This document shows positions 553-4,638 of a stretch of 48,555 bases of DNA, one piece after another. The DNA is taken from the NCBI GenBank assembly GCA_020426625.1, contig JAGQPR010000007.1, positions 1 to 48,555 on the forward strand. Reading direction: 5' to 3'. The number at the start of each line of letters is the position of its first letter. Positions within the stretch are counted from its first letter, which is position 1. This DNA comes from Planctomycetales bacterium (lineage in GTDB: Bacteria > Planctomycetota > Planctomycetia > Pirellulales > Pirellulaceae). Below the pieces are notes generated by a model, which was not told the DNA's origin, made no database searches, and was given only the letters and a program-made list of their open reading frames with translations. Made by a program: the position numbers and the translations under genes.

Positions 553-623
553 GCAGGCTTCAGTTTTCAGAAATCAGGCTTCAGGAAACAACAGAAACCT
601 GAAGTCTGATACCTGAAGCCTGC
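553..623. repeat. palindromic spacer repeat in tRNA cluster
   Basis: The ends GCAGGCTTCAG (553-563) and CTGAAGCCTGC (613-623) are perfect inverted repeats. Matching blocks ATCAG and CTTCAGG continue inward, so RNA or single-stranded DNA could form a long hairpin. Similar sequence (cttcagg, aggcctgaa) is seen at 1-48, cut by the window edge. From 624 to 862 I see no gene. A hairpin GCGGTT/AACCGC near 672-693 may be a tRNA relic. Confidence 0.6.
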
Positions 624-2824: not shown

Positions 2825-2880
2825 TGGCTCCAATCGAGACGACTACTTTTAGGGAGAAAGAGTAGCGAGTCCCGATGGAT

Positions 2881-3301
2881 GAGTCTTGAGTTGAGCGGAC
2901 ATCAGGACGCTGAGCGGAGTGAGCGGATGAGACCGGCGAGCACCCTGGCTGTTTCATCTGCTTGGCTCGCGAGTTGTTCGGCCGAATCGCTGGACGTGTA
3001 CTCGAGGCGTCGTGCGATTGTTAGCTGATACTCAACCTCACGTATGGACCCGAATGCCATGTCAAGGAAGCGAAGGAAGTCAGCTTCCGAGTTCCTTGCA
3101 CATCCTTCGACGATATTCGACGCGATAGAAACGGAAGCTCGGCGAAGTTGCGAAATCAGCCCGAACACTTCGTCCTTCGGGAATATCCTGGTTGCTGAAT
3201 AGACGGACATGACAAGCTGATCCGCCAACTCGAAGGCTCCCAATTTTCGATGATCCCGCATATTTCATTCCCGTATTCTCAGGACTCACAACTCAAGACT
3301 C
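2881..3301. mobile_element. inverted-repeat-bounded element with four-helix-bundle gene, copy 1
   Basis: GAGTCTTGAGTTG (2881-2893) and CAACTCAAGACTC (3289-3301) form a perfect 13-bp inverted repeat around a gene for an S23/IVS-type four-helix-bundle protein. The arrangement resembles the stem-forming intervening sequences of 23S rRNA genes, but here it sits 12 bp upstream of a tRNA-Cys. Related arm sequence recurs without a gene at about 3663-3691. Mobility is inferred. Confidence 0.5.
2902..3261 (-). CDS. four-helix-bundle protein (23S rRNA IVS/S23 family)
   Basis: This 119-aa all-alpha protein belongs to the family encoded in intervening sequences of some bacterial 23S rRNA genes; the family also includes Avd of diversity-generating retroelements. 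Diagnostic strings are FELADQLVMSVY, FPKDEVFGLISQLRRA, SVSIASNIVEG and FLRFLDMAFGSIREVEY, corresponding to helices 1 to 3. The family length is usual. The gene is alone between inverted repeats. No reverse transcriptase or template repeat is present, so a retroelement role is not supported. Its molecular role is unknown. Confidence 0.85.
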   Translation of the reverse strand: MRDHRKLGAFELADQLVMSVYSATRIFPKDEVFGLISQLRRASVSIASNIVEGCARNSEADFLRFLDMAFGSIREVEYQLTIARRLEYTSSDSAEQLASQADETARVLAGLIRSLRSAS

Positions 3302-3312
3302 ACCTCTATCCT

Positions 3313-3383
3313 AACGCTGGAGCCAGATGGCCAGGCAACCGGCTGCAACCCGGTCGAAGTGGGTTCGACTCCCACGAGCGTTT
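3313..3383 (+). tRNA. tRNA-Cys(GCA)
   Basis: The acceptor AACGCTG (3313-3319) pairs with GAGCGTT (3376-3382) except for the last G-G position. The discriminator is T3383, the U73 identity element of cysteine tRNAs. The anticodon stem ACCGG/CCGGT holds the loop CTGCAAC, giving anticodon GCA. The T-arm GTGGG-TTCGACT-CCCAC is perfect. It starts 11 bp after the inverted-repeat element. Confidence 0.75.
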
Positions 3384-3462
3384 CTGACGAATCGACTGCA
3401 GGCTTGGATTACATATTGCTAATGTGAACCATCTGAGCTGTTACCTCGTCGATCCGTCTTTG

Positions 3463-3550
3463 GAAGTTTGAAGTCGGAAGAGTGAATGGTGAAAGGAGCC
3501 GATGCTGTAACTGCTCGGCTTCACGCTTCACCCTTCACTTTTCAAACTTC
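3463..3550. repeat. palindromic repeat of the GAAGTTTG family
   Basis: The left arm GAAGTTTG (3463-3470) continues as gaagagtgaa and ggtgaaagg. It is mirrored by cttcacccttcac and CAAACTTC (3543-3550). With mismatches the 88 bp form a long imperfect hairpin. The same left arm starts at about 121 and at 3724. It lies directly upstream of an isolated tRNA 3' half. Confidence 0.6.
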
Positions 3551-3593
3551 GTTCACGATTGACTGCCAGGTTGGACTACATCACGCGACGGTC

Positions 3594-3618
3594 GCGGGTT
3601 CGAATCCCGCCAAAGCAA
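3594..3618 (+). other. isolated tRNA 3' half (T-arm and acceptor 3' strand)
   Basis: A perfect T-arm GCGGG-TTCGAAT-CCCGC (3594-3610) is followed by CAAAGCA (3611-3617) and A3618. No matching acceptor 5' strand precedes it. Its exact complement TGCTTTG lies about 80 bp downstream at 3696, attached to a 5' tRNA half. Upstream bases 3570-3593 may hold anticodon-arm remnants, but I see no clear stem. Confidence 0.55.
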
Positions 3619-3695
3619 TTCGAGCTGTGAGGGATGAGCTGTGAGACTTGACTGAAAGTGCTCGAGTCTCAAGACTCAAACCTCAAGACTCTTTC

Positions 3696-3721
3696 TGCTT
3701 TGTAGCTCAGTGGGTAGAGCA
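3696..3721 (+). other. isolated tRNA 5' half (acceptor 5' strand and D-arm)
   Basis: TGCTTTG-TA-GCTC-AGTGGGTA-GAGC-A has the exact spacing of tRNA positions 1-26. Immediately after it the sequence turns into the GAAGTTTG palindrome, so no anticodon arm follows. The acceptor strand is the perfect complement of CAAAGCA at 3611-3617, which lies upstream. This is either a circularly permuted tRNA gene or two halves of tRNAs disrupted by repeats. Confidence 0.55.
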
Positions 3722-3723
3722 AC

Positions 3724-3814
3724 TTTGGAAGTTTGAAGTTAGAAGGGTGAAGTGTGAAAGGAAGTCTTGGTATTGGTTCTTGAAACTTCTTACTTCCCAC
3801 TTCGAACTTCCAAA
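3724..3814. repeat. palindromic repeat of the GAAGTTTG family, second copy
   Basis: TTTGGAAGTTTGAAG (3724-3738) mirrors CTTCGAACTTCCAAA (3800-3814) at 14 of 15 positions, with further matching blocks inside. It abuts the tRNA 5' half, as if inserted in the tRNA after position 27. From 3815 to 3962 I see no supported gene. Confidence 0.6.
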
Positions 3815-3962
3815 CTGCCGTTTTCATTTTCAATGGCTCGTGAGAGTAACCATGCGTGTGCAATTTCAATTCTTCGCCATTACGAAATCCGGGGCCGAGT
3901 AATCGGACGCCAAGCGAAGACGATCTGCACATTCAAACCACTTTCATCATGCGATATGAATC

Positions 3963-4117
3963 ATGAAAACCACAACCGAAACCAACTTCGCGACGAACGT
4001 GGCAGCACGCGTCGCCGGAGAAGACATCAAACCGGGCGACTACGTCACCGCCTTTACAGAGATCTGCGAATTACCATCGTTCGTGTGGATGGATTCGATG
4101 GGCAGCCAGCACCGGTG
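3963..4117 (+). pseudogene. 5' part of a small protein gene interrupted by an element
   Basis: From ATG 3963 the frame reads like an authentic protein start (NVAARVAGEDIKPGDYV, then TEICELPSFVW) until the inverted-repeat element begins at 4118. Beyond it, 4641-4742 has an open stretch ending in MTEVTLGVASAMRKLLG and a stop. That may be a 3' remnant of this or another small gene, although the two ends do not rejoin in frame. I do not recognise the family with confidence. The 51 codons before the element are probably the truncated N-terminus of a roughly 100-aa protein. Confidence 0.35.
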
Positions 4118-4638
4118 GATTGCAAATTGCAAAATGAACATTGTAAAAGTTAAATTGTTCCAGACATTGCGATTGGATTTCAAATTTAGGAGCGAACCAT
4201 GAAACCGGATGATCTTTCAGAGCGGTTGCTGGACCTGGCGGTGCGAGTTGGGAAAGTGGTTGATGCGTTGCCGGACACTCGATTGGGCAAGCATATTGCG
4301 GGACAATTGGTTCGTAGCGGAACAGCACCCGCACCGAACTATGAAGAAGCCTGTGCTGCGGAAAGTCGTCGAGATTTCATCCACAAAGTTCGGATCGCAC
4401 TCAAAGAACTCCGAGAAACGCGCTGCTGGATCAAGCTCATCATGCGGTCTGAATTGCTCCCAGAAGCAAGAATGAGCGAACTCGCGAATGAGGCCGACGA
4501 GCTCTGCAGAATCCTCGGCCAATCTTTGGTGACTGCCCGAAAAAACGAAGAACGCGCAAAAACCAAACGCGCAAACCCGATCCCCAAATGAACAACCGCA
4601 ATAACCAATTTGCAACGTTCATTTTGCAATTTGCAATC
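4118..4638. mobile_element. inverted-repeat-bounded element with four-helix-bundle gene, copy 2
   Basis: The 30-bp ends 4118-4147 and 4609-4638 are inverted repeats matching at 28 of 30 positions, with 22 perfect bases built on GATTGCAAATTGCAAAATG. They enclose one four-helix-bundle gene of a different subfamily from copy 1. The arms are unrelated in sequence to copy 1, but the architecture is the same. The element lies inside a small open frame that starts at 3963, which suggests insertion. Confidence 0.55.
4199..4591 (+). CDS. four-helix-bundle protein (S23/IVS family)
   Basis: This 130-aa helical protein has the hallmark strings LGKHIAGQLVRSGTAPAPNYEEA, ESRRDFIHK and IALKELRETRCWIKLI, placing it in the 23S-rRNA-intervening-sequence four-helix-bundle family. 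The C-terminus (residues 112-130) is a basic tail. A strong ribosome site (TTAGGAG) lies 6 bp before the ATG. It is the only gene inside the 521-bp inverted-repeat element. The function is unknown; related proteins bind nucleic acid or act as accessory factors. Confidence 0.88.
   Translation: MKPDDLSERLLDLAVRVGKVVDALPDTRLGKHIAGQLVRSGTAPAPNYEEACAAESRRDFIHKVRIALKELRETRCWIKLIMRSELLPEARMSELANEADELCRILGQSLVTARKNEERAKTKRANPIPK

Follow-up and report, generated by a model that had tools for sequence, protein, structure and literature searches.

The window, a 48,555-nt stretch of contig JAGQPR010000007.1 from the 8.4-Mb draft genome of a Planctomycetales bacterium (GCA_020426625.1), contains two genes for S23 four-helix-bundle proteins, and its genes have their nearest relatives in planctomycetes such as strain CA13. 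Both S23 genes matched PF05635 (6.8e-33 for gene A and 6.7e-16 for gene B) and TIGR02436, and gene A additionally gave weak matches to PF22296 and to the Avd model; 2gsc is a solved relative of its protein. As described in an earlier note on this DNA, the two genes belong to different S23 subfamilies (32% identity over 72 aa) and lie in opposite orientations. Each is the sole gene between a pair of inverted arms, and the resulting units are referred to as elements A and B (Table 1).

Table 1. Features of elements A and B and of the gene-less hairpins in the window
Feature	Position	Strand	Remarks
Gene A, S23 four-helix-bundle protein, PF05635/TIGR02436, 119 aa	2902-3261	-	Profile matches
Element A 3' arm (gene sense), array of ~7-nt units	2860-2895	-	By inspection; conserved in G005 and CA13
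Element A 5' arm (gene sense), array of ~7-nt units	3278-3306	-	By inspection; conserved in relatives
Element A perfect inverted core	2880-2893/3289-3302		14/14 bp
tRNA-Cys (GCA), outer side of element A	3313-3384	+	
5' remnant of the host gene that element B interrupts (conserved, ~121 aa)	3963-4117	+	Intact in L036-L046
Element B 5' arm, 7-nt units ATTGCAA ATTGCAA AATGAAC ATTGTAA AAGTTAA	4118-4157	+	Paired part 4118-4147
Gene B, S23 four-helix-bundle protein, PF05635/TIGR02436, 130 aa, subfamily other than that of A	4199-4591	+	
Element B 3' arm, inverted array	4599-4638	+	Paired part 4609-4638; 28/30 bp with 5' arm
Gene-less hairpin behind tRNA-Lys, CTTCAGG language	553-623	.	Arms 553-582/594-623
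Gene-less hairpin, GAAGTTT language	3458-3550	.	Arms 3463-3493/3520-3550, 77% complementary; lag-7 tract 3516-3546
Gene-less hairpin in the language of element A	3622-3692	.	By inspection; absent from the program's inverted-repeat list
Gene-less hairpin, GAAGTTT language	3724-3814	.	Arms 3724-3758/3780-3814; lag-7 tracts

The inverted repeats reported earlier around both genes are real, with the correction that the perfect core of element A is one base pair longer than the 13 bp originally given. The 3' arm of element A consists on the + strand of the units GAGTAGC GAGTCCC GATGGAT GAGTCTT GAGTTGA, and its 5' arm, read as the reverse complement of the + strand, of GAGTCTT GAGTTGT GAGTCCT GAG. 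Element B uses a unit language common to other elements of its subfamily, such as those at loci L132, L135 and L136, and its inverted-repeat score of 26 exceeded those of all 460 random windows of equal size (maximum 23). The score of 14 for element A reaches by itself only the ~95th percentile of random windows; the repeat is made convincing by the degenerate 7-nt arrays into which its arms extend and by the orthologous copies at the same site in G005 and strain CA13, which score 15-17. Gene A is under strong purifying selection, with a dN/dS of 0.062 between the window and G005, 0.041 between the two CA13 copies, and 0.08-0.11 in comparison with L025 of G027 (dS close to saturation).

The placement of both elements in a tRNA cluster applies to element A, which adjoins tRNA-Cys, whereas element B lies inside a truncated copy of a ~121-aa gene near that cluster. 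This host gene is intact (120-123 aa) in at least 10 relatives and encodes a conserved planctomycete protein (VAARVAGEDI..GDYVTVL..ELPSFLW...VCLPFVYAK) for which Pfam gave no match. In G007, the stop codon of this gene is closely followed by another S23 element. The tRNA clusters of these planctomycetes also contain repeated units that start with GACTGCCGGTTCGGAGTACAT and end with CTCTGGTCANNACTTCGTCG, located at 3394-3440 and 3561-3724 of the window and at L023, L025, L036, L041, L151 and other loci. Several of these carry the 3' half of a tRNA ahead of a 5' half and look like circularly permuted tRNA genes; with ARAGORN, 6 of 12 T-arm units were called as tRNA (with intron) only after rotation, and none before. 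Some cluster units, at L052 and L060 (on the downstream side of the SEC-C gene) and at L023, contain a sequence similar to a conserved segment of 23S rRNA (GGTCCTAAGGTAGCGA or near it), with no rRNA gene detected there. Rfam searches of the window, L052 and L060 at the gathering threshold returned nothing but tRNA.

The survey of other S23 genes proposed in the earlier note revealed inverted repeats around most of them. The surveyed loci are best-scoring matches, many of them from draft or metagenome assemblies. Inverted flanks with a score of at least 17 were present in 170 of 233 S23 genes from many phyla, compared with ~1% of random windows (99th percentile, 16-17), while clear arms were absent in about a quarter of the genes. 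The inverted-repeat median was 21 against a direct-repeat median of 11, and inverted similarity was the higher of the two in 182 cases versus 42 (p 5e-21). Among the 93 genes from planctomycete relatives, 65 exceeded the random 99th percentile, with a median of 23 as compared to 10 for cross-paired and 11 for random flanks. The autocorrelation of their flanks was highest at lag 7, followed by 14 and 21, and reached 0.665 at lag 7 versus 0.459 more than 1 kb away. A further 101 genes were taken from genome and viral collections covering many phyla, with record names that include Desulfobacterales, Nitrospirota, Acidobacteriota, Chloroflexi, Bacteroidetes, Kaiserbacteria, Cyanobacteria and Verrucomicrobia; 75 of the 101 were above the same percentile, with lag-7 values of 0.67 versus 0.45. 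Genomes belonging to the same phylum as a Treponema locus also had inverted arrays.

Each arm is a degenerate tandem array with a unit of ~7 nt, the two arms of an element run in opposite orientation, and the unit differs in nearly every element. Within the 119 clear period-7 elements, the units in the two arms of one element agreed at 5.5 of 7 positions, versus 3.6 of 7 in mixed pairs; 85 of the units contain AG in the sense of the gene, and they otherwise differ greatly between elements. In four elements (L149, L150, L153 and L160), from records of several phyla named as Desulfobacterales, Deltaproteobacteria, Brocadiaceae and Anammoxibacter, the outermost ends have the common motif ACTACTCAGGTG, inverted on both sides.

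The earlier note had recognised the inverted repeats, but not their build from period-7 arrays or the way in which the period tracks the protein clade. Period 8 prevails in some S23 protein clades and period 6 in a few, and mapping the period onto a tree of 188 proteins required 7 changes, compared with 17.3 after shuffling (0/200 as low). The unit sequence also follows the protein (Mantel r 0.30, 0/999), a relation that holds among close relatives only, since unit sharing is at background below ~50% protein identity; unit sequence changes faster than period. Co-inheritance can account for part of the association of period and unit with protein clade, and the persistence of the period beyond that of the unit sequence suggests constraint. 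bAvd (PF22296) genes from the same phylum served as a control and were scored with a nearby reverse-transcriptase-like YxDD motif as marker. Only one of the 21 bAvd genes with this motif reached a score of 17, and the remaining four high-scoring bAvd genes had no such motif nearby. The reverse-transcriptase-linked bAvd relatives in the same phylum are thus without arms. The elements share the four-helix-bundle fold family with the DGR accessory protein Avd/bAvd, but differ from the DGR arrangement, in which a reverse transcriptase and template/variable repeats accompany the gene, in having inverted arrays and only S23, no reverse transcriptase, between them. The solved relatives 2gsc and 2rld have five chains each, and the title of the Xcc0516 paper, as given in the reference list of PMC10053308, speaks of five four-helix bundles. 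The medians of 5.1 and 4.7 units per arm are biased by the detection threshold, and a match of exactly five units per arm to the pentamer is therefore left as a hint.

Three loci were identified with both empty and filled alleles, and at two of these the alleles occur within a single genus. The X-tyrS junction is filled in G053 (TGA, 5' array, S23, 3' array, ATG) and empty in G321 of the same genus (TAA GCCTGCGC ATG). The junction preceding a pglX-type methyltransferase gene (PADLOC PglX, 8e-220) is filled in G007 and, by a different S23 subfamily, in G032; it is empty in G001, which belongs to the genus of G007, in G041, and at three loci with overlapping ATGA. Site A, with the order SEC-C gene, element, tRNA-Cys, is filled in the window, G005, CA13 (two copies) and G027, and empty in G021 and G053. 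The source genome further contains two closely similar elements, each behind a different tRNA-Pro gene; their similarity climbs sharply at the array. The search of related genomes thus yielded the empty sites expected of a mobile element, as the earlier note had suspected, and speaks against synteny without insertion. It is very probable that this element class exists and is mobile.

No clear target-site duplication was seen in the empty/filled pairs, whose boundaries are approximate. One empty spacer equals one arm unit, against a background rate of ~1%; this is a single suggestive site, and an origin of the array units from the target is not claimed. A clean replacement of arms at site A was also considered and set aside: the 3' arm of G027 has its best pairing partner in the 5' arm of the same element (14 vs 5-7), and the comparison is one-sided, as the reverse direction (12-16 against others) gave no discrimination.

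The elements lie between tRNA genes or fill the junction of two successive genes, fitting closely to the stop codon on one side and the start codon on the other. Among 181 armed elements, both neighbours were on the S23 strand in 74 and both on the opposite strand in 8 (p 1.6e-14), and this orientation bias suggests that the S23 gene is read from host transcripts. In the 74 co-oriented elements the median distance from the upstream stop codon to the beginning of the 5' array is -1 nt, and that from the end of the 3' array to the downstream start codon is 4 nt, a fit that is owed in part to short operon spacers. This fit to operon junctions had escaped the first reading of the window, which was correct in that the setting is not limited to rRNA: most surveyed family members have inverted flanks, and an rRNA location emerged for no tested locus (23S probes, all loci; Rfam, a subset). 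The few matches to a sarcin-ricin-loop probe were isolated and are therefore attributed to chance. An intein-like, in-frame insertion into coding genes was rejected, as flanking frames are mixed and the majority of elements are intergenic.

Their operon position and sense orientation, together with the strong purifying selection (dN/dS 0.04-0.11), could also be explained if S23 were a resident, non-mobile DNA- or RNA-binding regulator and the arrays the operators of its own operon. We regard this as highly improbable: the pglX junction holds two S23 subfamilies in two genera and is empty in others, the neighbours are unrelated from element to element, the insertion of element B breaks a host gene, and one genome carries two closely similar copies.

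The gene content and plan of the elements resemble those of the intervening sequences (IVSs) with an S23 ORF in the 23S rRNA of Coxiella and Leptospira. The Coxiella IVS measures 428 nt, the stems of such sequences are cleaved by RNase III, and their origin is still called unclear (PMC4990558). Shared features are the S23 protein, complementary ends around a single gene, a similar size, a sporadic distribution and suspected mobility. The elements in the window differ in lying beside tRNA-Cys or inside a protein gene and not in rRNA, perhaps in having period-7 arrays as arms, and in arms that give no sign of selection for RNA pairing. They work partly like 23S IVSs but, given their location, are not classed as members of that group.

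Selected pairing in RNA should produce more G.U pairs than A.C mismatches. No such excess was detected in 172 arm pairs, with 279 G.U and 303 A.C (expected ratio 0.97, p 0.34). The predicted folds of the two elements were only moderately better than those of shuffled sequences: that of element A was hardly better (z -1.48), and that of element B reached z -2.63. The lack of a G.U excess and the modest folds indicate that the resemblance between the arms is probably maintained at the DNA level. It is therefore unlikely that the elements act as RNA-level IVSs, in which the arms would pair in the transcript and RNase III would excise the gene, or the stem would bridge the junction and keep stop and start codons adjacent. 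The fold of element B, the family and plan held in common with rRNA IVSs (PMC4990558), and the occurrence in transcribed tRNA spacers and sense-direction operon junctions would agree with such a role; the base-pair counts, the fold of element A and the location outside rRNA of all tested loci do not. The part of the earlier note that proposed IVS-like RNA processing is thus not upheld.

Gene-less derivatives, hairpins or solo arrays akin to the S23 arms, occur in the tRNA region of the window (Table 1) and, in several genomes, at the junction of two genes that we take to be apgM and lysC. The hairpin in the language of element A has the units GAGCTGT GAGGGAT GAGCTGT GAGACTT ... AAGACTC AAACCTC AAGACTC. 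Solo 7-nt tracts without an S23 gene were seen upstream of lysC at L289, L292, L294 and L315, and the same junction holds a full S23 element in L287/L015. In Geobacter metallireducens, the excerpted text of PMC2700814 describes tandem 7- or 8-nt units in two opposite-strand arrays at variable distance and in many copies, as putative sites for global regulators (IHF/HU). The present elements agree with this description of tandem 7-/8-nt units paired on opposite strands, and differ in their S23 gene, which that excerpt does not mention. Both the gene-less forms and the Geobacter repeats would be accommodated if the arrays were an independent MITE-like hairpin family moved in trans by another factor, with S23 as a passenger or stabilising cargo. 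Since, however, period and unit track the S23 protein, the gene is under strong purifying selection, and S23 is surrounded by arrays while its reverse-transcriptase-linked relatives are not, we consider this improbable.

As small intergenic hairpin-forming repeats with gene-less copies, the elements recall MITEs and REP/RAYT, and like DNA transposons and MITEs they have empty and occupied sites in relatives. They differ in that only S23 lies between the arms, with no DDE or HuH transposase (for REP/RAYT, no TnpA-REP gene, but PF05635 only), and in that the units vary among elements, so that period-7 arrays take the place of a fixed TIR or class-wide terminal sequence. The TAACTGA heptamer repeats of Beggiatoaceae and Cyanobacteria are likewise intergenic 7-nt tandem repeats, but are direct instead of inverted, have a single sequence, and come without a reported link to S23 (PMC4679880). 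A literature search, in which subscription journals were thinly covered, found no report linking PF05635 to inverted heptad arrays. The elements possibly represent a new element class.

Accordingly, we hypothesize that A and B are copies of a widespread small mobile DNA element of ~0.4-0.6 kb, in which one S23/PF05635 gene lies between two terminal, mutually inverted arrays, each with about four to five units of ~7 nt, and that the S23 multimer encoded by an element recognises the arrays of that element and drives or licenses movement. We give this proposal about an even chance. The action of the protein, as we infer it, would be as follows: S23, pentameric in its solved relative, would bind the arrays of its own element with approximately one subunit per unit, and the multimer would bridge the two ends. 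We know of no catalytic site in S23; as no nuclease or transposase lies between the arms, cutting and joining would probably be carried out by host recombination or replication enzymes. The arms could stay similar to each other because they serve as inverted binding-site arrays, or through copying between arms in a DNA hairpin. Insertions would survive where they are least harmful, in tRNA spacers and at sense-direction operon stop/start junctions, and at the latter the host transcript would express the S23 gene. Tentatively, and leaning somewhat against it ourselves, we also raise the broader idea that PF05635, a large family whose members are chiefly known as rRNA-IVS or 'four helix bundle' proteins, is the hallmark of a categorically new transposase-less mobile class in which the protein sets the period, one pentamer subunit per unit, and of which rRNA IVSs, tRNA-spacer hairpins and paired heptanucleotide repeats would be branches or derivatives.

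These observations provide a concrete and testable context for a large family of uncharacterised proteins, in which the model predicts a protein that measures the repeat period and not one fixed sequence. If this is true, the rRNA IVS would be one particular form of a widespread element, and an origin would be available for the paired heptanucleotide repeats seen in unrelated genomes.
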